A stretch of 64,000 nucleotides of DNA from Alicyclobacillus pomorum DSM 14955 (GTDB taxonomy: Bacteria > Bacillota > Bacilli > Alicyclobacillales > Alicyclobacillaceae), in contig NZ_AXAR01000010.1 of assembly GCF_000472905.1 (NCBI RefSeq), positions 105-64,104 of the forward strand. The letters run 5' to 3'. Positions within the stretch are counted from its first letter, which is position 1. The number at the start of each line of letters is the position of its first letter. The notes beneath the pieces are model-generated. The model had not been told where the DNA came from, made no database searches, and saw only the letters and a program-made list of their open reading frames with translations. The position numbers were made by a program, and so were the translations under genes. Shown here piece after piece: positions 14,355 to 34,705 of the stretch.

Positions 14355-14541
14355 AGGATCCCTCTTTGTCGGTATTTCACTCTCATTACATCAAACATCG
14401 TGAAGCGTGCCTAGTACATACTATGGAACCTGTACGAAAAATCTGCACTAATGCAAATTGTGCGTCATTGGTCGCTCAGACTATGCTAATATCGGAATAG
14501 AAAACCTATTTTTGGCGCTTAATATCGTTGTTGAAGCGGTG

Positions 14542-15855
14542 ATGATAATGCCTAGCATCGGTGAAAAGATTCGCGAAGCCCGACTCCAACGCGGCCTTAC
14601 GCAAGGCGATTTAGCGGAAGACCTGGTGACGCCAAGCATGATCAGCCAGATTGAAGCGGACAAAGCAAAACCCTCCTATCCTCTGCTGACCGCCATTGCC
14701 AATCGGTTGGGCTTGCCTGTTGAACACTTCCTAAACGAACTTCAGGATCAGTTTACCCTCACCACCTACCTGCGGCTGGCAGAGTACTACCTTTTGCTAA
14801 AGCAGCCGGAGATGGCCGAAAGCACGCTGCGTTCGGTCGACCCCCCCCTCCCCCCTGGCCTGGACTACCAAGAATACCACCTCTACCTGGCGCGGGCATG
14901 CCGAATGCTGAACCGGTCTTACGAAGCCATCATGCTTCTGGAAGACTTGCGAGAGCAGGCACTCCGGCATCAAGACAGGAAACTTCTGTTTTCTGTCTGC
15001 AAGGAGTCGGGCTACGTAGAGTTTGCCATAGACAATGCGGACGGTGCAATGCACGAGTGGAAAAAGGCACTGCATATCGGAGAGACACTGTGGGCAGAGG
15101 GCGAGTGGGGGTCTGTCGAGGCGCAAGCTGAACTGTCCGAAGTCTGCACGTGCTTACACCAACTGTACACGCAAATGAGAGACACGTCCAACGCCTTGAA
15201 GATGGCCACACGTGCCGCAGAATTGACGAAAGGTTTTGGACGCGTTCGGGACATCGCGAACGCCTTGGTGTCAGACGGTGTGCGTGCCCTGGAGGCTGGT
15301 GATTCCGCTCGAGCCAAGTTGGCGTTGGAGCGCGCGATTTCCGTTATCCACACGACGCAGTGGATTGAGCAAGCACTTGTGGCATGGGCAATGCAGCCGA
15401 CGGCAGACAAGGAGACTGATCCGTGGGAACAAGCGGCGATGGCGACAACCACCATGGATCCAGCCATCCACTTGCAAGCAGAACTTCACCATATTGCGCG
15501 GCACCTGGAGCAGGGTGACGCTGTGGGCGCGCTGGAGCAAGTCCGGCGGTGCAAGGATTTCATGGCATCGTGCGAATCGGAGATTCCTGGTTTCTCTTCT
15601 TGGCAGAACGGGCTACGCCACCGCTTGGAGGTCAAAGCGGCACGAGCTCATTTTGCGCTAGGCCAAGTGTCTGAGGGAATGCGTATCTTCCAGGACACCA
15701 AAGAGGCGCTGATGCAGGAGGGATTACATAAATTTGCAGCCTATGTCGTGGCTCAGTGGGTGCAGTGCGAGATGGAGTCTGGCCAAATGAGCAAAGGATT
15801 GGAACTCACTCAGGAATTGCAGAAGTTGTTGGTGCAAGCAAACAACCGAACCTAA
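14542..15855 (+). CDS. XRE-type HTH regulator with TPR domain (RRNPP-like)
   Basis: About 437 residues. The N-terminal 60 residues form a Cro/CI helix-turn-helix (IREARLQRGLTQGDLAEDLVTPSMISQIEADKAKPS). The remainder is all-helical with TPR-like pairs up to the C-terminus, the architecture of peptide-responsive cytosolic regulators (NprR, PlcR, Rgg, Rap relatives). The frame is open upstream from 14458, but the HTH begins at ATG 14542 or 14548; no strong ribosome site is visible. A C8-T-C6 run (about 14841-14855) lies inside the coding sequence and is a potential slippage site. The gene converges on the GGDEF/HD-GYP gene. The nearest secreted micro-peptide gene is 2.2 kb away. Confidence 0.85.
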   Translation: MIMPSIGEKIREARLQRGLTQGDLAEDLVTPSMISQIEADKAKPSYPLLTAIANRLGLPVEHFLNELQDQFTLTTYLRLAEYYLLLKQPEMAESTLRSVDPPLPPGLDYQEYHLYLARACRMLNRSYEAIMLLEDLREQALRHQDRKLLFSVCKESGYVEFAIDNADGAMHEWKKALHIGETLWAEGEWGSVEAQAELSEVCTCLHQLYTQMRDTSNALKMATRAAELTKGFGRVRDIANALVSDGVRALEAGDSARAKLALERAISVIHTTQWIEQALVAWAMQPTADKETDPWEQAAMATTTMDPAIHLQAELHHIARHLEQGDAVGALEQVRRCKDFMASCESEIPGFSSWQNGLRHRLEVKAARAHFALGQVSEGMRIFQDTKEALMQEGLHKFAAYVVAQWVQCEMESGQMSKGLELTQELQKLLVQANNRT

Positions 15856-22724: not shown

Positions 22725-24197
22725 TCATGGAGCCGCCTGTAACAACGGCAGAATCGGGTTTTTCCGGTCTACTTCAACGACGCTCGTCACTGTCACTCCA
22801 AACAGTGAGGGATCTTCTAAGTAGATGGACTTTCCGTCATTCAGTGTCACCCAAGCGTTGACAAAGCCGTACATTCCATAATGGTAATCCAGCGCGAAGC
22901 CGCAGTAACTCACTGCTTTTCCGTTGTAATACAGCGGTTTGTCTGGATCCAAATCCATGTATGTCGTGATATCGTCCGGCGGGTTCTTGTCTTGTGTTGT
23001 GTCCTCTGCTTTGCCGTTGCCTTGCAACGTGCCATTCGGGAGAACCATCAACTGTTCTTGCCCTGCAGACATTTTGACACCGTGCCAGACGGTGTTGCCG
23101 TGTTGCAGCACCCGAATATAACCTTGAAACGATGGATTCGCCTTTACAGTGACTGCAACGCCATCATCACTCGTCCGACCAGCTTGTTTCAGCAGCGAGC
23201 TCAACGTGCTGTTCAGCGCGGCGGGCGTACCTCCAAAAGCGGCTTGGAATGCCGCGTCGGAACTCATACCTTGTTTCATGGCCTGCAAGTACTTTGCCAG
23301 CGATGCTTCTCCATGTTGATGCGCAAGATAACTGATGGCCAACCAATCCTGCAGTTCCAAATCGTACGACGCGTTCCCTGCCAACACTTGTGCCTCGTCT
23401 TTCGCAAGCGGAACGAGGTTGCCAGAGACCGCAGCCTTCATGACACTCTCTGCCATCTGCCGAGCGTAACCGCCATACGAAACCGGATTTTCCACCTTCG
23501 CTTGTACCTTCATGCCGTTGTACACAGCCAATCCCTCATTGACCCAGCTCGGAAGGTTGTCCACGTTGGCATTCAGATAGGCATTCAGAAACGCGTGTGT
23601 TAATTCGTGTGCCAGCGTGTTGGCCAAATCGGCGTTCGAAGTGTTTTGATACAGCGGCACCACGATATCGCGGCCCATTGTAAACCCACCGGTATCTTGC
23701 GAATACCGTTGAGCGTCTTGGACCGAGACGCCAAGTGAATTGAGTGCATCCTTATAATCCGTGGCATTTTGCGCAAGATATATGTGAACCGGGCCGCTCG
23801 TGCTCATTTGTAGCGTACGGAACACCGTGTCGACAATGTGGTAGTCAGACAACAGCTGGTTGACGCTCTTCACTTTGCCAACCGGAACATCGTGCCCATA
23901 CGCCGTGACGTGAACCGCTTCGGCGGCATCCACGTGCGGTGTGGGCAAGGGCGTAGTGCCGTTTGACGAAACTGTGGCATTCGTCGGCTGAACGCGATGA
24001 GAAGTATCGGCCGGTGGTTCACTGCGATGGTCTGAAGACGGCGATTGGGCTGATTTCATGTGGGACAACGCATGGATCCAGGACTGCACCTGTTCTGGGT
24101 TGTGTTCGTACACCAACGTCCCCGATGCCACAGCGGTCAATGCAATGGCAAAAGCTGAAATGGTAAGATGAAACCATTTATCCGAGCGGCGGGCCAT
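22725..24197 (-). CDS. Exported peptidase MA-like zinc metalloprotease
   Basis: 490 residues from ATG 24197 (GGGGGAAAG upstream); the longer frame to 24290 lacks a ribosome site. An N-terminal hydrophobic segment (LTISAFAIALTAVASGTLVYEH) acts as signal or anchor. A low-complexity Ser/Pro/Thr linker precedes the catalytic part with HELTH (about residue 197) and the downstream Glu in WVNEGLAVY, the MA-clan peptidase arrangement. The C-terminal 150 residues are beta-rich and unassigned. The substrate is unknown. It groups with other secreted proteases between 22.7 and 31.3 kb. Confidence 0.8.
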   Translation of the reverse strand: MARRSDKWFHLTISAFAIALTAVASGTLVYEHNPEQVQSWIHALSHMKSAQSPSSDHRSEPPADTSHRVQPTNATVSSNGTTPLPTPHVDAAEAVHVTAYGHDVPVGKVKSVNQLLSDYHIVDTVFRTLQMSTSGPVHIYLAQNATDYKDALNSLGVSVQDAQRYSQDTGGFTMGRDIVVPLYQNTSNADLANTLAHELTHAFLNAYLNANVDNLPSWVNEGLAVYNGMKVQAKVENPVSYGGYARQMAESVMKAAVSGNLVPLAKDEAQVLAGNASYDLELQDWLAISYLAHQHGEASLAKYLQAMKQGMSSDAAFQAAFGGTPAALNSTLSSLLKQAGRTSDDGVAVTVKANPSFQGYIRVLQHGNTVWHGVKMSAGQEQLMVLPNGTLQGNGKAEDTTQDKNPPDDITTYMDLDPDKPLYYNGKAVSYCGFALDYHYGMYGFVNAWVTLNDGKSIYLEDPSLFGVTVTSVVEVDRKNPILPLLQAAP

Positions 24198-24299
24198 GTC
24201 TTTCCCCCATTCTGAGGCCATCGTCGATACTTGTAGTGTAGCCGGAATGCATACAGATTGAAACGTGCGTGTTTTCGGAACTTGATTCACAATTTTTGA

Positions 24300-24892: not shown

Positions 24893-26818
24893 ATGACCAA
24901 ACTCACCCGCAGTCTGGCCATCATCGGGTTGGCGAGTGCGATGAGCCTCACCGCAATTCCCACGTTTGCTGCAGCCGACACGAATCAATCCATTCCGCAG
25001 GGCGTTGGCTCGGGCGTGTTGAACAACACAAACTATTTCGGAGATCTCGACCCCAACACACCAGTCACTATCGATATCGTGATGAAGTTGCAGAACAAAA
25101 ACGCGCTGGCCCAATTCATCAATCAGACCACAGATCCGAACAGCCGGAATTTCCGCCATTATCTCAGCCCAACAGACTTTGCTCGCCAGTACGCCCCAAG
25201 TGACGCCCAAGTTCTCGCCATCGTCGGCTATCTCAAGGCGTTCGGTATCCAATCTACCGTTTATCCGGACCATCTCATCGTCACTGCGAGCGGGACCGCA
25301 GGCCAGTTCAACAAAGCGTTCAGCATTGTGCTGAAGAACGCGACGTACCACGGCAAGCGATTCCACGCGACGCCGCAGGCGCCGAAGGCCCCGTCAAACA
25401 TCGCGAATGACATTCTGTGCATCCTCGGCCTCAGCAACTACTCTGACTTTCATTCGAATGCCATCAAGCGCATGGACAACGGCGACACCTCCACCCCCAC
25501 CGGCCCGCTGAACCTGACACCGCAAGATCTCGTCAGCCACTACCACGTGCAGCCATTGTACGATAAGGGAGCAACCGGCGCCGGACAGACCATCGGTATT
25601 GTCACGCTCGCAGATTTTAACGAGCAAGACGCATACGACTTCTGGAACCAGATGGGCATCCACGTCAAGCCAAGCCGAATCACCAAAGTCAACGTCGACG
25701 GCGGATCGGATTGGAATGGCTATGATGAAACCTCGCTGGACGTGGAACAATCCGGTGCTCTCGCACCTCAAGCAAATATTCGCGTATACGTTGCTCCCAA
25801 CAGCGACACAGGATTTGTCGACGGCTTCGCGAAGGCTATCAACGACAACCAGGCGCAACAAATTTCCGTCAGCTGGGGAGAAAGTGAGACGGCCATCAGT
25901 TATCTCGTCCAGCAGCAGCTCGAGACGCCAGAATATGCAGAGGTGTTCAACCAACTCTACATGCAGGCCGCTGCGCAGGGCATCTCCATGTTCGCGGCAG
26001 CTGGAGATGAAGGGGCCTACGACGCGGTGCGCGAGTTCGGCCTGTCGTCAGGCATTCCAGGCGCCGCCTCCCTGTCGGTCGACAATCCTGCGGACAGCCC
26101 GTACATCACGGCGGCAGGAGGCACAACGCTGCCGTTCCACTTCCACTCCAGTTCTACAGGGTTGGACGTGCGCAATGATGCCGAACGTGCCTGGGGATGG
26201 GATTACCTCTGGCAGTACTTCGACGCGCGCGGACTGAATGACCCCAACGACTGGGTCAACCGTTACCTGGTGGGCGGCGGCGGTGGCTTCAGCCAGTTTT
26301 TCGCAACCCCGGACTACCAGAGAGGGGTACCCGGCGTCAATCGCTATACCGGCGTGAAGCAGTTTACGCCGACTGCGGATGGGTCCTCCCTGACGAGAGA
26401 CGCGCAACCGACCATTGTAACAGGCACTGGCCAGGGGCGGAACCTGCCCGACCTCTCCATGAACGCAGACCCTTACACGGGATATTTGGTTTACTTTAGC
26501 GATCCAGGAGCGCCCGGAACAAACGCAGGATTCGCCACCTACGGCGGCACCAGCTTTGTCGCGCCGCAACTGTGTGGCCTGTCCGCACTCATCAACAGCA
26601 GCGACCAAACGCGCGTCGGTTTCTGGAACCCGCAAATCTACCGGTTTGCCTTGCAGAAAACATCGCCGTTCACGCCGCTCAACACCACCGGCCCCACCAA
26701 CGACAACGGTTTCTACACCGGCAAGCCGGGTACCGTCTACAACCAAGCGACAGGGTTGGGGATTCCTGACATCGCCAAGCTCGCGGACGCCTTCGCCGCT
26801 TCCCGGAATCACCATTGA
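24893..26818 (+). CDS. Kumamolisin-type S53 serine-carboxyl protease precursor (sedolisin)
   Basis: 641-residue secreted pro-protease active at acid pH. Signal peptide at residues 1-27 (ends TFAAA), S53 propeptide to about residue 200 (RHYLSPTDFARQYAP, SGTAGQFNKAF), then the catalytic domain. Catalytic Glu279 and Asp283 lie in DETSLDVEQ, the oxyanion Asp372 in AAAGDEGAYD and nucleophile Ser554 in YGGTSFVAPQ. The Ca2+-site region is at the C-terminus (NQATGLGIPD). GAGGAG ribosome site. A 260-bp upstream gap holds a CAGAAAA/TTTTCTG inverted repeat (24792-24813) that could be regulatory. The closest relatives by memory are kumamolisins of Alicyclobacillus. Confidence 0.95.
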   Translation: MTKLTRSLAIIGLASAMSLTAIPTFAAADTNQSIPQGVGSGVLNNTNYFGDLDPNTPVTIDIVMKLQNKNALAQFINQTTDPNSRNFRHYLSPTDFARQYAPSDAQVLAIVGYLKAFGIQSTVYPDHLIVTASGTAGQFNKAFSIVLKNATYHGKRFHATPQAPKAPSNIANDILCILGLSNYSDFHSNAIKRMDNGDTSTPTGPLNLTPQDLVSHYHVQPLYDKGATGAGQTIGIVTLADFNEQDAYDFWNQMGIHVKPSRITKVNVDGGSDWNGYDETSLDVEQSGALAPQANIRVYVAPNSDTGFVDGFAKAINDNQAQQISVSWGESETAISYLVQQQLETPEYAEVFNQLYMQAAAQGISMFAAAGDEGAYDAVREFGLSSGIPGAASLSVDNPADSPYITAAGGTTLPFHFHSSSTGLDVRNDAERAWGWDYLWQYFDARGLNDPNDWVNRYLVGGGGGFSQFFATPDYQRGVPGVNRYTGVKQFTPTADGSSLTRDAQPTIVTGTGQGRNLPDLSMNADPYTGYLVYFSDPGAPGTNAGFATYGGTSFVAPQLCGLSALINSSDQTRVGFWNPQIYRFALQKTSPFTPLNTTGPTNDNGFYTGKPGTVYNQATGLGIPDIAKLADAFAASRNHH

Positions 26819-28778: not shown

Positions 28779-31307
28779 TCACGAATTGGCAGCGGCGTCC
28801 AACCCAATCAACTGGATGCCGTCCGGAACCGCCGTCGCCGGATAGGCGTGTTCCAAGTCTCCAGCACTCGAGTACAGCAACGCTTGTACCAAGAACGGAT
28901 GCCCGTACTCATAGGCGACCTCAAACTCCTGCCGCGGCAACGTTCCATCGTTCCCTGTGCCGATGTACCAGTCTCCATCGTAGACAACAGACAGACTGGA
29001 AGACGGCTTCTCGGTCAGTCCACTAGGGACAGTGACCGTCCCGTCGCTGTTGCAAACAATGGAGTAGACTTTCCCTTCCTGCAGTCCGGAGATGGTCACT
29101 GTCTGTCCTTGACTGTTAATGACGTAGATCTGACTCGGCCCTCCCGGCAAGACCTTCAGTCGCATCGTGAACGAGGAGTCGCTCTGACTTGCCAACTGCT
29201 TCAGTTTCTGGGTCACTTCATCCGAGAACTGCTGAAATGATTCACTGAACGTATGCTGGAACGCGTCTGGATCCGAATCGATGGCCTTCACATACTGCAT
29301 AAATTTGTTCATGCCAAAGCGATTGATCAACTGCTGTACGGCGAAATAGTCCTGGTCCTCTACGTTGTAGTTACCATCGAGCGGATTGGCGGCACCCAGC
29401 TTCAAAAGATCGCCCTTTTGTTGGTGTGCGACAATGTCCACCCACTCGTACCACTGTTCACCGTCCAGCAACAGCTCGTCGGGGCTCTGGTCGAGTTCAC
29501 CAGCAATCCCGTCGGCCCAGGCCACGCCTTCGTTGGCCCAGCTCTCTATCTTGTTGGACACGGTGGCAATCAGCGAATGGGTGAACTCGTGCGCCAAGAT
29601 GTTCATTCCGTCCACCGATTCGTACGAGGGCATCAACACGCTGATCTTGTTGGTTCCTTCCTCCGCCGCGACCGACTCTTCGGCAATCTGCTTGGCTTCG
29701 TCCGCCGAGTACCCTTCGCTGATGAAGTGGTTTTCGTAAGAGCTGGCATTTCCGTAAAGGACAATGTTCATCTTTTCCGACGGCTTCAACCCCGTCCTCG
29801 ACACATCCAGCGGATAAATGCGTTCAAACAGATCCGCCACGGACTGGAGTTCTTCCTTGGTCACACTGGAATCCGCTGCGGTGACAATCGCGTGGGCAGA
29901 TTCTACCTTCTCAGCGGTCGCCAATGCCGGAACTTTTACGGTGAGAGACGTCGTCTCCCCTGTGGTGACAAATGGCTGCACAAGGTACAGCGTGTCCGAC
30001 GCAGTGACAACCGCGTATACTTCGTATGCACCTTCCGGCACAGTGACCGAGAAGGTCCCGTTGGACCCGACTTTTGCGTAGTAGTGTGCATGCGTAATGA
30101 CATTGCGCAGGGACACCTCCGAAACGGGGTACGATGGCCCCGTGAAGGACAATTTCCCTTGAATGACACTCGTTTTCTGCACATCGGTTGCCGTCACAGG
30201 GCTTTGGCCCCCCAGTGCGATGGACTGTCCCGTCCAACCATCGAAGGGGGTCTCCACGCCAATCAAATACCCGCCGACAGCTTGCAGAAATGCATCAAAT
30301 CGCCCGTTGCTGTCTGTATCCACGACGTGCACGGCGCCGGACGCATCTTCAATGGCGACCTTGCCAACCATCGGCTGGCCATCGGCACCCTCCAGTTGGC
30401 CGTCTACATCGACAAACGCGGAGGCCGGAACTGTGACAGCTACGTCGTGCGTCGCGCTCTGTGTCTGCACGGTGATACCCAGCGCCTTGAGGGCATCCGC
30501 AGAGGCATACCACGCACTCCCCCACTGCACGAGCGTGGTCGGCTGCGAAGCTGACCCAATCTGCAGCGAGGCGCCTGAGACAATGCGGGGAAGTTGCTGG
30601 ATAAACAACGCTTTCCCGTTCCACGTGTTCCCTATCCCGTGGGCATTCAGAAACTGTTGCAGGTAGTACACGCCAAAAAACGTCGTTCCATCGCGGCGCA
30701 ATATGGGAACCGATTTCCACAGGCGCCCGTTTTCTTTGACGTATCCTGTGCCCATGGATGCCTGCGTTGACGCAGGATACACGGTAGCCAAGTGCACCGT
30801 AGACGACGTACTGGAACCTGGTTTGAGGTCGACGGTGAGTGTTTGTCTTTTCACGTCGGCCGGGAGTGTGAGGTTCAAAGACTTCCATGTTCCGTCGTAA
30901 GACAGTTTGGCTCCGGTGGAAGACGCCAGTGACGATACATTGACGTAAGTGGCGCCGTTGTATGTCATGGTGGGGCAAGCGCTCTGCCGTTTGCCGTTCA
31001 CCGTAAAGGTTGACAATCCGTCGATGTGCGGCAGTGCATCCACAGACAACGTCTTTCCGTCCCACGTTGTGCCTATCCCGTACACTTTCAATAGTTGTTG
31101 CAAGTACCAAATGCCAAAAAACGTCGTTTGATTCGCAGTCACGTACGGCACCGTTCGCCATACTTTGTTGTCCACGTATACAGGACCCGACCTCATGGTG
31201 GACGTCACCGCCCACGCTGTCGCCGGGGTCCATGCAGCCCCTCCTGCGGTCGCCAGGGCGCCGGACAACGCAATGGCCGTGAACGTCTTTTTCGCAATCT
31301 TCATCAT
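28779..31307 (-). CDS. Large secreted metalloprotease with tandem N-terminal repeats
   Basis: 842 residues from ATG 31307 (GGAGG upstream); the upstream in-frame codons to 31385 are not supported. Signal peptide MKIAKKTFTAIALSGALAT, processed after about AWA. Two tandem copies of a roughly 130-residue module share TTFFGxxYLQQ and GIGxTWxGK motifs, resembling copper-amine-oxidase-N/stalk-like wall domains. Two carboxypeptidase-regulatory-like beta modules follow (about residues 330-480). The peptidase MA-like domain has HEFTH at about residue 572 and WANEGVAW behind it. The C-terminus is beta-rich. Probably cell-surface or secreted; substrate unknown. It shares HExTH plus NEG logic with the 22.7-kb protease. 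Confidence 0.8.
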   Translation of the reverse strand: MMKIAKKTFTAIALSGALATAGGAAWTPATAWAVTSTMRSGPVYVDNKVWRTVPYVTANQTTFFGIWYLQQLLKVYGIGTTWDGKTLSVDALPHIDGLSTFTVNGKRQSACPTMTYNGATYVNVSSLASSTGAKLSYDGTWKSLNLTLPADVKRQTLTVDLKPGSSTSSTVHLATVYPASTQASMGTGYVKENGRLWKSVPILRRDGTTFFGVYYLQQFLNAHGIGNTWNGKALFIQQLPRIVSGASLQIGSASQPTTLVQWGSAWYASADALKALGITVQTQSATHDVAVTVPASAFVDVDGQLEGADGQPMVGKVAIEDASGAVHVVDTDSNGRFDAFLQAVGGYLIGVETPFDGWTGQSIALGGQSPVTATDVQKTSVIQGKLSFTGPSYPVSEVSLRNVITHAHYYAKVGSNGTFSVTVPEGAYEVYAVVTASDTLYLVQPFVTTGETTSLTVKVPALATAEKVESAHAIVTAADSSVTKEELQSVADLFERIYPLDVSRTGLKPSEKMNIVLYGNASSYENHFISEGYSADEAKQIAEESVAAEEGTNKISVLMPSYESVDGMNILAHEFTHSLIATVSNKIESWANEGVAWADGIAGELDQSPDELLLDGEQWYEWVDIVAHQQKGDLLKLGAANPLDGNYNVEDQDYFAVQQLINRFGMNKFMQYVKAIDSDPDAFQHTFSESFQQFSDEVTQKLKQLASQSDSSFTMRLKVLPGGPSQIYVINSQGQTVTISGLQEGKVYSIVCNSDGTVTVPSGLTEKPSSSLSVVYDGDWYIGTGNDGTLPRQEFEVAYEYGHPFLVQALLYSSAGDLEHAYPATAVPDGIQLIGLDAAANS

Positions 31308-31555
31308 GTACTTCCTCCAAGGTCTGATCCACCGCGACCGGCAGATGTAGAAACTTCGTTGCAAACTCTCTATTGAATTACACATGGAATGAAAAATTCC
31401 TATGAACCCTGGCTAGAAATTGATGAGAAGGCGGGGTTCCACCTGGGAAGACACGGCGGGTGTCGACGCGTGACGAAGCTTGACGGGCAGCAGGATTGGA
31501 GAGGAGAGACGCGAATCGTAGCGGTAGTAGAGTGGCGTACGTGATCAAAATAAGA

Positions 31556-31580
31556 CACCGCAAGCGAGTGGCCTGCGGTG
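31556..31580 (-). terminator. Terminator of the 47-aa peptide gene
   Basis: Arms CACCGCA / TGCGGTG plus an inner GC pair, 5-nt loop, followed on the minus strand by TCTTATTTTG. It lies 17 nt beyond the peptide stop. The stretch 31308-31555 upstream of the metalloprotease otherwise shows no gene. Confidence 0.75.
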
Positions 31581-31597
31581 CTTAGGCGGAGGCAGTC

Positions 31598-31741
31598 CTA
31601 CGGCAAGTGGGTTGTTTGATATCCCACCATTGGCTCGGGAACAGTAGGGATGAATATACCAGCTTCCGCAACGACTGCAAATGAAGTCGCGAACAACGTC
31701 GCAAATGCCACAAGCCCTAAAACTCTCTTTGTCCATTTCAT
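31598..31741 (-). CDS. 47-residue secreted peptide, candidate signalling-peptide precursor
   Basis: ATG 31741 preceded by AAAGGTG. The product has a textbook signal peptide: positive start (MKWTKR), hydrophobic core to about residue 24 and a signal-peptidase motif AEA at residues 25-27. It leaves a 20-residue, Pro-rich uncharged tail beginning GIFIPTV and ending TTHLP. The gene has its own terminator and is divergent from the HTH-TPR regulator gene, with only 43 bp between the start codons, so each promoter must overlap the other gene. This is the expected form for a Phr/PapR/NprX-like propeptide with a cytosolic TPR receptor, but the divergent order is unusual. No homologue recognised. An in-frame extension to 31786 is not supported. 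Confidence 0.7.
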   Translation of the reverse strand: MKWTKRVLGLVAFATLFATSFAVVAEAGIFIPTVPEPMVGYQTTHLP

Positions 31742-31784
31742 CAGGCACCACACCTTTCTACGTATTGGGATGGAGGCGACGCCC

Positions 31785-33101
31785 ATGGTGTTCGAGACAG
31801 AACGAGAGTTATTCGCACTGATTATCGGCTACCGAGTCCGCGAAGCCCGCATCCGCAAGCACATGTCACAAAGTGAACTCGGGCAGGGATTGGGCAGCCA
31901 GTCCATGATCAGCCTGATAGAGAGTGGAAAGCAACTGCCGCCGGCGGACGTGTTGTCCATCCTCGTCGATAGACTGGAGGAACCATTGTTAGCAGAATAT
32001 GTGCCAGCCCTTCAGTCTGGACGGATAACCATCGCAGACGTCTCCGCATCAAACCACTCTATCCTACTCGACGTGCTCCGGACCCGTCGCGGACGTTGGA
32101 ACGAAACCCATGGACAGGTCGCGCTTCATCTCTGTTACCACTACTATACGAACCAAATGTTCGAAATAGCACGAGAGTTATCTATCATGATCCGCGAGCA
32201 TTTGCCCGACCACGTCCCCTTTTACGCGGAAGCCTCGTTTTTGCTAGGCAGTAGTCTGCTGTTTGTTCAGGAATACCAACAGGCGGAGGCGGCCCTGCGG
32301 GATGCGGAGAGAAGGGCGGATGCCCTGCGTGAAGACGTACGCGGACGACTGTTTTACAACCTTGGTTACTTGTATACGGAAAACGACGAGCAGGGACTCG
32401 CCCTGTGGTACGCGAAAAACGCGGTAGAAACGTTTCATCGAAACCTCGACTTCGGCCGATATAGCAAGTCTCTGGGACTTTTGGGTTGTATTCAAGGCCG
32501 GCTTGGGCGGCTCGAAGATGCCCGTGACACATTGGAACTGTGCTACGAAATCTCGGGAAAGTGGGGGATTTCTGAGGTGGACCGTGGCCGCATTGAAGCG
32601 ACGTTGGCTGGTATCCTTGCTCACCTGGAGCAGTACGAACTTGCCAAGGCTTGGGCGGATCGAGCCAAGCACACATCCGCGTCGTCGGGAGACATTCGCA
32701 CGCAGTGCACAATGTATTTGGCCTTCGTGCAGATTTATCAACATGAAGGAGACGTGAAACTGGTCGTAGACGCCATTCACAAGTCAGTCCACGCGGCAGA
32801 ACTGACCAACGACCGCCACCAAATCGCCCAATCCCAACTGATTGCGGCACTGTACCTGCCGGACGAAGACGAGCGGTTGCAGGCGGCGAAACAGGCGTAC
32901 GAAATCACGGCGGGCACCAATCTGCACATTGAACACGCTTTGGCTGCAGAAGTTCTCGCGCAAATCTACGAACGGCAAAACGTGAAGAGCGAAGCGATAC
33001 ATTACCAAAAGGTTGCGCTGCAGTCATACCGCGACTACATTGAGAAGAACTCCATGTTCAAGGGCATCATCCAGCACCTGCCAAGGCACACCGTTTTATG
33101 A
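31785..33101 (+). CDS. HTH-TPR transcriptional regulator, RRNPP-like peptide receptor candidate
   Basis: 438 residues from ATG 31785, 8 nt after GGAGG. N-terminal Cro/CI HTH (YRVREARIRKHMSQSELGQGLGSQSMISLIESGKQLPP), then tandem TPR-like helix pairs to the C-terminus (e.g. YAEASFLLGSSLLFVQEYQQAEAALRDAE, RLFYNLGYLYTENDEQGLALWYAKNA, RIEATLAGILAHLEQYELAKAWADRA). This is the domain order of NprR/PlcR/Rgg-type receptors of imported oligopeptides. It diverges from a secreted-peptide gene and is followed, after 255 bp, by a free-standing S53 propeptide gene. Upstream in-frame codons from 31650 are antisense to the peptide gene and are rejected. Confidence 0.88.
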   Translation: MVFETERELFALIIGYRVREARIRKHMSQSELGQGLGSQSMISLIESGKQLPPADVLSILVDRLEEPLLAEYVPALQSGRITIADVSASNHSILLDVLRTRRGRWNETHGQVALHLCYHYYTNQMFEIARELSIMIREHLPDHVPFYAEASFLLGSSLLFVQEYQQAEAALRDAERRADALREDVRGRLFYNLGYLYTENDEQGLALWYAKNAVETFHRNLDFGRYSKSLGLLGCIQGRLGRLEDARDTLELCYEISGKWGISEVDRGRIEATLAGILAHLEQYELAKAWADRAKHTSASSGDIRTQCTMYLAFVQIYQHEGDVKLVVDAIHKSVHAAELTNDRHQIAQSQLIAALYLPDEDERLQAAKQAYEITAGTNLHIEHALAAEVLAQIYERQNVKSEAIHYQKVALQSYRDYIEKNSMFKGIIQHLPRHTVL

Positions 33102-33356
33102 CTCATAACACGGCCCAATCCGTGGGTCAGCCGCCTCCTGGGCTCCTCGAACGACGCCGTCAGCGCCTGCATTCATCATATCTCTGGCGCAAGGACGTGC
33201 CACGTGAGCAGCGAATGTCTCCAGTGGGAAGGAAGTACACCGGCGAGATCCATCCACAATCCTGGAACCCGCCGTGGAGCGCGCGCAGAAAACTTCCCAG
33301 TGCTGAATGCGGATCGCGACCGTACTCAGCCAATCCCTTGAATGGAGGCGATACCA

Positions 33357-33992
33357 TTGAAATTCACGAAGCACGACATCTCTACCGCCGCCCGTGTTGC
33401 TGACGTTGCATTCGTTGAATCCCCGTCATTGGCCGCCGTCCAGTCTCAATCGTCGAAGGTGCACCGGCCACCTGGTATCCCCGTTCACGCGAAGCAGGTC
33501 GGGCACCTTGCCACGGAGCTGCGGATGAACTTTGTGGTCGCACTGAAACTGCGCGACACAGAAGACATGAAGCAGTTCGTGCAAAGCTTGTACGATTCGT
33601 CGTCGCCGGATTTTCGCCACTTCCCGAAGCAAGCCGAATTTTCGCTGCGGTTCGGGCCCACGGCGGAACAGTACCACGCTGTGACAGAGTTCTTGACGCT
33701 GAACGGCTTCGTCATAACCCATACGTACGACAGCCACCTTGTGGTGGACGTGTCTGGTACCGTGGGAGACATTGAGTGTGCGTTCCAAGTATCTCTGTAC
33801 GAGTACGTGTTCAACGGGCAATGGTTCTTCGCCCCCGACAAGCGACTGACACTCCCACCGGACGTGGCCGTCCTCATCCAATGTGTGATGGGCCTCGACA
33901 ACCTGGCCAAGTTGCAGCGGCGCGCGGCAAGGATAGGACTGCCGCCGACCCTGGCAACACGCAGGTTTCGTCCGGCGAAGCGTGTATCGTAA
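33357..33992 (+). CDS. Stand-alone S53 (kumamolisin) propeptide domain protein
   Basis: 211 residues from TTG 33357, 8 nt after GGAGG (an ATG at 33342 in the same frame precedes the site). The central 140 residues match the S53 activation domain: MNFVVALKLRDTEDMKQFVQ, SSSPDFRHFPKQAEFSLRFGP, DSHLVVDVSGTVGDIECAFQVSLYEY and PPDVAVLIQCVMGLDNLAKL, each aligning with the propeptide of the kumamolisin at 24893. No catalytic domain follows in any frame, there is no evident signal peptide, and the tail is basic (RRFRPAKRVS). It could be an intracellular inhibitor or chaperone of S53 proteases, or a relic of a truncated protease. Located just downstream of the HTH-TPR regulator. Confidence 0.8.
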   Translation: MKFTKHDISTAARVADVAFVESPSLAAVQSQSSKVHRPPGIPVHAKQVGHLATELRMNFVVALKLRDTEDMKQFVQSLYDSSSPDFRHFPKQAEFSLRFGPTAEQYHAVTEFLTLNGFVITHTYDSHLVVDVSGTVGDIECAFQVSLYEYVFNGQWFFAPDKRLTLPPDVAVLIQCVMGLDNLAKLQRRAARIGLPPTLATRRFRPAKRVS

Positions 33993-34093
33993 AGGCCGTC
34001 GCCTGGTCGCCGTAAATCTGTTGGATGTCAGTCGGGTTGTCGCCATGTTGTCGCCGTCAACCGCGTGACATCCGCACAGACCTTCCACACATC

Positions 34094-34125
34094 AGCCGCC
34101 GTCACGATCCCCCGTGGCGGCGGCT
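34094..34125 (+). other. GC-rich hairpin between propeptide and moaB-like genes
   Basis: Arms 34094-34106 and 34113-34125 pair over 13 nt with one mismatch around ATCCCC. There is no T-run, so terminator function is uncertain. Nothing else is seen in 33993-34207 apart from the ribosome site of the next gene. Confidence 0.4.
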
Positions 34126-34207
34126 CCTGCCTCGCAGATCACGACAAAATCGTGTATTGTCGAAAGTATCAGTACAACGTATGCAATGTCATAAAGGTGG
34201 GACAGTC

Positions 34208-34705
34208 ATGGGCGTGAGAATTGCGGTGGTCACGGTCAGTGATTCGGCGAGCAACGGGGCTCGAACCGTCGATGTCAGCGGAGACACGGCACAACAGATG
34301 CTTGAGGGCGCAGGGTTCACTGTCGCCGTTCGAGAAGTGGTACCCGATGAGCGTTTCGTCATTGCACAGACCCTGCGTCGGCTGTGCGCGTTGGAAGACA
34401 TCTCCTGCGTCATCACGACCGGCGGGACGGGGATTGGACCAAGGGACGTCACACCCGAAGCCACGCTCGACGTGATTGACAAATCGCTTCCTGGCATTGC
34501 GGAGGCCATGCGGGCGGAGAGTTTGAAAAAGACGCCGTTCGCGATGTTGTCTCGACAAGTCGCAGGGGTGTGCAACCGCACGCTCATTGTCAACCTGCCC
34601 GGTAGTCCCAAGGCGGTGGCAGAATGTTTAGATGTCGTACTCCCGGTGTTGAGACATGCCGTTCAGCTCATGGCTGGGAACACGTCGCACCGTGAGACGC
34701 CGTGA
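34208..34705 (+). CDS. moaB: Molybdenum cofactor biosynthesis protein MoaB/MogA
   Basis: 165 residues from ATG 34208 (AAAGGTGGG upstream). MoaB/MogA adenylylates molybdopterin before metal insertion. Landmarks: VVTVSDSASNGARTVDVSGD, the TTGGTGIGPRDVTPEA nucleotide-site motif and the NLPGSPKAV segment. No other Mo-cofactor gene is in the window. It ends 8 bp from the convergent hydrolase gene. Confidence 0.93.
   Translation: MGVRIAVVTVSDSASNGARTVDVSGDTAQQMLEGAGFTVAVREVVPDERFVIAQTLRRLCALEDISCVITTGGTGIGPRDVTPEATLDVIDKSLPGIAEAMRAESLKKTPFAMLSRQVAGVCNRTLIVNLPGSPKAVAECLDVVLPVLRHAVQLMAGNTSHRETP

Follow-up and report, generated by a model that had tools for sequence, protein, structure and literature searches.

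The Alicyclobacillus family consists of acid-loving spore-formers, with fruit-juice spoilers among them. In a 64,000-nucleotide stretch of Alicyclobacillus pomorum DSM 14955 (contig NZ_AXAR01000010.1, positions 105 to 64,104; 'the window' in what follows), the gene for a 47-residue propeptide stands back to back with the gene for a 438-residue regulator that combines a helix-turn-helix (HTH) domain with a tetratricopeptide-repeat (TPR) superhelix. We propose, with a probability of about 0.82, that these two divergent genes encode an RRNPP-type peptide pheromone system, seen here only in the Alicyclobacillus family, and sequence comparison makes it highly likely that their products are ligand and receptor. 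We read this receptor–pheromone subfamily as new within RRNPP; it may coincide with one of the 21 novel subfamilies reported by the RRNPP_detector survey (Bernard et al., 2023; PMC10075063).

The propeptide reads MKWTKRVLGLVAFATLFATSFAVVAEA up to the proposed cleavage point and GIFIPTVPEPMVGYQTTHLP beyond it, the second part being a tail of 20 residues that contains the string VPEPM (leaders were called by sequence inspection and a hydropathy filter, and cleavage after AEA was judged by eye; coordinates are given in Table 1). The terminator behind the gene ranks as the strongest of three terminator-like sites in 751 bp, where 0.5 would be expected, and its stretch has a fold z of -3.2. On the other strand, the start of the receptor gene is backed by a GGAGG at 31772-31776 and by an identical start in the nearest relative. 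An earlier note on this DNA, made from its letters alone, had described a 47-codon gene with a ribosome site, a leader ending in AEA, a 20-residue tail and its own terminator, diverging by 43 bp from a 438-residue HTH and TPR regulator; all of these elements are present, the regulator matching HTH_3 and TPR_12. The window peptide has no match in Pfam or NCBIfam at E ≤ 10, and the other members of its family gave scattered weak matches only (the best, at 0.0067, to a lactate permease, and one to Phr_nterm at 2.4).

The recurrence of the pair carries the argument. Among 41 genomes of the Alicyclobacillus family, 15 contain near-full-length receptor homologs, 19 copies with that of the window, at 25-55% identity to the window protein; the genus itself was represented by the window genome (3.4 Mb) and by a single other member, Alicyclobacillus contaminans DSM 17975. 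Each of the 19 receptors is adjoined by a leader-bearing open reading frame (ORF) of 38-58 residues that has basic residues at its start and a hydrophobic stretch. The earlier note had made it one test of its proposal whether related genomes keep the short ORF next to homologs of the regulator; they do so at all 19 loci, which supports the RRNPP-type peptide–receptor pair that it had suggested. The ORF is divergent from the receptor gene at 17 loci, with 21-56 bp between the starts, and convergent at two. At these two loci (L022:2860-2982 and L023:1250-1426), which hold related receptors, the peptide gene lies behind the receptor gene and its core is PPYPS; we read them as a probable rearrangement of the pair in which the partner was retained.

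The tails share an xPxP core in 19 of 19 cases, with the consensus PPxPM (PPTPM, PPEPM, PPDPM, PPRPM, PPTPL, PPTPF, PPTPA, PPLPV and PPYPS, and VPEPM in the window). In alignment A2, P35 and P37 are invariant and require no gap, whereas the invariance of P32 depends on a two-column gap. Core residues 34-38 are our proposed heart of the signal. The receptor was also sought more widely: at the level of the order, a match is present in 18 out of 59 genomes, of which 15 belong to the family, and in the other three it covers only the HTH; at the level of the class, nine of 398 evenly drawn genomes match at E ≤ 1e-25, all of them family members, in a scan that scored just four candidates per genome. 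Scanning genome contigs gave no match with the single receptor protein and 10 loci with the profile. A phage origin was also considered and rejected: viral contigs held no relative, and none of 31 pattern-matching stretches was confirmed.

Could an unrelated, secreted-looking ORF simply happen to adjoin an HTH–TPR regulator? Short ORFs with a hydrophobic start are indeed frequent. A control set made up of the window and 17 further stretches, each some 20 kb long (403,901 bases with 18 of the 19 receptor copies, because G031, on a short contig, is absent from this extended set), contains 164 ORFs that pass the leader filter, that is 164 in 404 kb before any ribosome-site condition, and 56 of these have a ribosome-site-like sequence. 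The motif [PV]PxP follows the leader in 18 of the 56, all receptor-side ORFs, and in none of the remaining 38; this strict motif and filter ([PV]PxP, ribosome site) were fixed after the sequences had been seen. The ORFs also evolve as coding sequence. Four of the seven close pairs, those of equal length, differ by 11, 6 and 41 substitutions at codon positions 1, 2 and 3 (41 of 58 at the third; P = 7e-9), and two gapped pairs lean likewise to third positions (7, 7, 16 and 9, 6, 26); the pair L008/L009 was not countable. The short ORF family is coding and tied to the receptor, and the recurrence of ORF and motif at 19 of 19 regulators is more than chance. With this recurrence, the third-position substitutions and the motif control set against it, a chance neighbour deserves scarcely any credence. 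Five more distant HTH regulators of the two genus members have no flagged motif ORF adjoining them, even in a looser scan that dropped the ribosome-site condition and accepted [VPILA]PxP.

In gene size and spacing, the window pair stays within the limits published for RRNPP systems (PMC10075063). The receptor, at 438 residues with a match of about 300 residues to NprR and Rap, falls in the range of 250-500 aa with a C-terminal TPR superhelix; it has the N-terminal HTH of the RRNPP transcription factors (HTH_3); and the propeptide, at 47 aa and 43 bp, falls within 10-100 aa and a gap of -60 to 400 bp. The TPR_12 match of the receptor (E = 1.1e-6) is just below the Pfam cut-off (29.2 versus 30.1 bits). 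Against solved structures, the 19-member receptor profile found NprR at 1.4e-12, RapF at 4e-12 and PlcR at 1.7e-11. An AlphaFold2 model built from the 19-row alignment reached a predicted local distance difference test (pLDDT) score of 90.8, and VIA-align superposed it on NprR (5dbk) with Z 24.4 and a root-mean-square deviation (rmsd) of 3.9 Å over 313 residues at 10% identity, on RapJ (4gyo) with Z 24.0 and on RapF (4i9c) with Z 23.2. As modelled, the fold is compatible with a pheromone receptor. In Rap and NprR, a conserved Asn in the TPR groove holds the peptide backbone; N192 of the window receptor (in YNLGY) is nearly invariant among the 19 receptors and pairs with YNIG of RapF in a weak match. 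The curated AimR model NCBIfam NF038310 matches four of the 19 members (best E = 9.4e-6), the window receptor being without a match to it at E ≤ 0.01. A second HTH regulator frame of the window, at 14458-15855 (+), encodes 465 aa and looks TPR-like by eye; its 34% identity to the receptor is confined to the HTH, and no PxP leader ORF was found adjoining it.

Several observations weigh against the pheromone reading. Kinesin light chains top the receptor-profile search, above NprR and Rap. VIA-align places LGN TPR domains (Z 26) above NprR, at a larger rmsd of 5.3-5.7 Å, and Foldseek with the receptor model puts LGN first (1.4e-7), RapF at rank 14 and NprR at rank 46. Searched as a single sequence, the TPR part of the window receptor retrieves RapF alone, at E = 0.026, and the homolog from G007 retrieves LGN (7.6e-9) before NprR (6.6e-5) and PlcR (1.3e-4). 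Because LGN-type TPR proteins score equally or higher, fold and profile are no proof of pheromone sensing. On the side of the peptide, the core is internal to the tail and not terminal, whereas most known RRNPP ligands are the C-terminal end of the propeptide tail (PMC10075063). The looser motif scan flagged nine other ORFs in 24 loci. By codon usage, the window ORF scores neutral (-0.032 per codon, a negative value although the best of six frames), which carries little weight because the ORF is so short. A search of the 19 regions for a shared operator, by inverted repeats and common k-mers, returned nothing convincing, and the only sigma-70-like site found at the window locus falls within the peptide gene, pointing to neither start. 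Since the starts at divergent loci are just 21-56 bp apart, the promoters probably extend into the gene on the other side. Finally, a gene for an S53 protease, the candidate target discussed below, is missing from the 7-kb surroundings of 11 of the 18 extended loci.

The short gene might instead encode a small membrane or secreted effector, such as a bacteriocin-like or stress peptide, the expression of which the HTH–TPR protein controls in response to another cue. A leader followed by a short tail would suit a membrane miniprotein too, the receptor fold is matched no less well by LGN and other TPR proteins, and divergent regulator–target pairs are common in bacteria. Yet the tail is short and keeps a strict PxP core while its remaining residues vary, and the regulator shares the NprR-type receptor architecture. 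The genomes with several receptors also argue against an effector, since the paralogous regulators of one genome each have their own core variant, as separate channels predict: three receptors in G017 go with PPTPM, PPYPS and PPEPM, those of G019 with PPTPM and PPYPS, and those of G032 with PPEPM and PPLPV. Receptors from one genome sit in separate branches of the receptor tree, in which 11 of 16 inner branches are well supported, although its branches are long and the program issued a warning. We consider an effector unlikely, and the paralogous receptors with different cores fit what would be separate signal channels.

In the pheromone system that we favour, the 47-residue propeptide would be exported via Sec, and signal peptidase and extracellular proteases would cut it down to a short linear peptide with a rigid VPEPM core. 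An oligopeptide permease would bring the mature peptide back into the cell; the window genome has five genes for OppA-type binding proteins, a common type that occurs in 11 of 14 control genomes. The peptide would then dock on the concave face of the receptor TPR superhelix, and the peptide-bound receptor would act differently, through its HTH, on the DNA of the divergent region that the two genes share and on that of exoprotease genes nearby. We also entertain, as a speculative extension that is probably wrong, a pheromone family adapted to acid: its signal would be an internal, peptidase-resistant PPxPM core and not the C-terminal end, and the neighbouring acid S53 and metallo-proteases would be both output and maturing enzymes. 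If so, the pheromone would arise only where a secreted protease works at low pH, one loop would jointly sense density, acidity and protease activity, and paralogous channels would be told apart by the core residue x together with the position that follows the last Pro.

Table 1. Features of the pheromone-like locus and its surroundings in the window (window positions).
Feature	Position	Strand	Remarks
Propeptide gene	31598..31741	-	47 codons; leader and Pro-containing tail
Export leader, predicted	31661..31741	-	Residues 1-27: basic start, hydrophobic stretch, AEA
Conserved core VPEPM	31628..31642	-	Residues 34-38; PPxPM in most homologs (alignment A2)
Propeptide ribosome binding site GAAAGGTG	31751..31758	-	About 10-17 nt upstream of the start
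Intrinsic terminator behind the propeptide gene	31555..31581	-	11-pair stem, T-rich tail
Gap between the two start codons	31742..31784	.	43 bp, divergent propeptide and receptor genes
Receptor gene	31785..33101	+	438 aa; HTH and TPR superhelix
HTH_3 DNA-binding domain	31836..31985	+	Residues 18-67; E = 6.6e-8, above cut-off
TPR-like domain, proposed peptide sensor	32100..33050	+	Residues 106-422, helical repeats in the model
Stand-alone Pro-kuma_activ ORF	33357..33992	+	211 aa; start TTG 33357 behind GGAGG, chosen by eye
Metallopeptidase-like protein, secreted	28779..31307	-	842 aa, HEFTH...E; candidate target; first long ORF past the propeptide gene
Complete S53 (pro-kumamolisin type) protease	24893..26818	+	641 aa; candidate target; lies past the phosphoglucomutase gene

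Protease genes gather around the receptors. The 15 receptor-bearing genomes contain 48 S53 catalytic domains, nine of them within 7 kb of a receptor, and such a gene lies within 7 kb at seven of the 19 receptor loci, against 0.22 loci expected under random placement. Grouping related genomes into lineages leaves the linkage in 5 of 11 (P = 5e-7); it becomes 4 of 10 (P = 1.7e-5) when a single count is given to the window together with the three g4 genomes, all of which have an S53 gene adjoining the phosphoglucomutase gene on the side of the peptide gene. These figures assume uniform placement, rounded genome sizes and lineages grouped by hand, with an S53 profile (A3) built from seven receptor-linked genes and a 7-kb limit picked after the neighbourhoods had been viewed. 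In each of the three g4 genomes, the receptor-linked gene is the sole Pro-kuma gene found, and a second S53 domain lies elsewhere. S53 proteases without a Pro-kuma match adjoin receptors at L068:7981-9123, L074:11403-12563 and L077:10829-12163; by eye, those of L074 and L077 have a leader-like segment and that of L068 has none.

The metallopeptidase-like protein on the peptide side of the window has an 857-aa counterpart in A. contaminans, in the same place and on the same strand as the peptide gene, and matches no Pfam peptidase family above its cut-off. HExxH proteins with a following NEG, the type to which these two belong, occur near nine of the 18 extended loci in the raw count, mostly within one conserved chromosomal neighbourhood. 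The window also encodes, at 22725-24290 (-), a Peptidase_MA_2 protein (E = 1.2e-10), either anchored in the membrane or secreted, with an HExxH...NEG pattern. The earlier note had the system tune acid protease output; the part of this idea that stands is the clustering of S53 and, in part, metallopeptidase genes near the receptors, and any control of these genes by the pair is putative. Judged from these neighbourhoods, pheromone control of nearby exoproteases could equally be right or wrong. Small leader-bearing proteins of 64-81 aa, encoded right past the receptor gene in two genera (L008:3128-3367, L010:938-1171, L014:3098-3343 and L016:2937-3131), with one also in L063, are further possible targets.

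Behind the receptor gene of the window, the earlier note had seen an S53 propeptide without a protease and had joined it to the pair as a third member. The propeptide is real (Pro-kuma_activ, E = 5.1e-24), and its open frame of 216 codons leaves no space for a catalytic domain. As the next gene behind the receptor, with an open frame, coding-like codon usage (0.17 per codon; 0.72 G+C at third codon positions, GC3) and a good ribosome site, and with S53 genes over-represented near the receptors of relatives, it might be thought a functional member that controls acid protease activity. Synteny tells otherwise. In A. contaminans, a MoaB-type gene lies directly behind the receptor gene and there is no stand-alone propeptide, and among the matches listed from the 41 family genomes, no further copy is both intact and stand-alone. 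Of the 34 Pro-kuma matches in the 15 receptor-bearing genomes, just two are short: that of the window, which is intact, and one in G032, a 96-aa frame with a stop; the closest relatives among the matches listed are 24-34% identical and are parts of longer frames. The propeptide is further separated from the receptor gene by 255 bp and, because no leader is seen by eye, it would not meet secreted proteases. This synteny leads us to reject the propeptide as a conserved third gene, and a three-gene unit in which it is a functional member is very improbable. No decayed protease follows it either, the three frames of 33985-34210 having no catalytic remnant by eye. The stand-alone pro-kumamolisin domain is possibly a cytosolic inhibitor or a relic.

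Of the known systems, Rap–Phr of Bacillus shares the TPR superhelix with the window receptor (RapJ 4gyo, RapF 4i9c). Its peptide is short, secreted, trimmed and re-imported, and phr is as a rule found downstream of rap in the same orientation; Rap is not known to have an HTH DNA-binding domain. The peptide of TprA2/PhrA2 differs from that of the window, and the core of NprX is SKPDIVG, without a PxP. NprR–NprX of the Bacillus cereus group nevertheless resembles the window pair in having a TPR receptor of similar fold and an adjoining propeptide gene. It activates the NprA metalloprotease (PMC4873490), and the protease neighbours of the window pair suggest that the latter may do likewise. The nprR and nprX genes form one same-strand operon (PMC4873490), whereas pairs of the window type are divergent at 17 and convergent at two of the 19 loci. 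The earlier note had thought this divergent order unusual, which needs correcting: Rgg/SHP groups I and II of streptococci share it with the window pair, having divergent genes with promoters in the shared region, it is general in leaderless-peptide systems (PMC13361665; PMC10518010), and the TprA2/PhrA2 genes of Streptococcus pneumoniae are on opposite strands (PMC5436883). The genes linked to TprA2/PhrA2, lantibiotic-like and transporter genes, are unlike those of the window locus (PMC5436883). RopB, of the streptococcal RopB/LCP system, controls an adjacent secreted protease (PMC10518010). With its long hydrophobic leader and Pro core, the window peptide is unlike the short hydrophobic peptides (SHPs), which are exported by PptAB and missed by SignalP (PMC10075063), and the leaderless communication peptides (LCPs), which have no leader (PMC10518010). 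No Rgg chain appears among the best 60 profile matches or the best 50 fold matches, which leaves room for kinship.

The survey counts 10 candidate-system gene clusters in Alicyclobacillaceae (PMC10075063), and these candidates are the only peptide signalling that we found in the accessible literature on Alicyclobacillus or Alicyclobacillaceae, none of it characterised. Its main text, in the part accessible, names no subfamily or core like PPxPM, an overlap with one of the 21 subfamilies being possible. The pair described here would add a well-bounded receptor–pheromone subfamily to the acid-loving spore-formers, with the probable core of the signal visible in the alignment. Because that core is conserved and the paralogs carry variants of it, signal specificity is open to immediate testing with synthetic peptides. 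We regard it as very probable that the window locus is a unit with which acid-loving bacteria signal from cell to cell, and the protease neighbours suggest that their production of acid exoproteases may be density-controlled.

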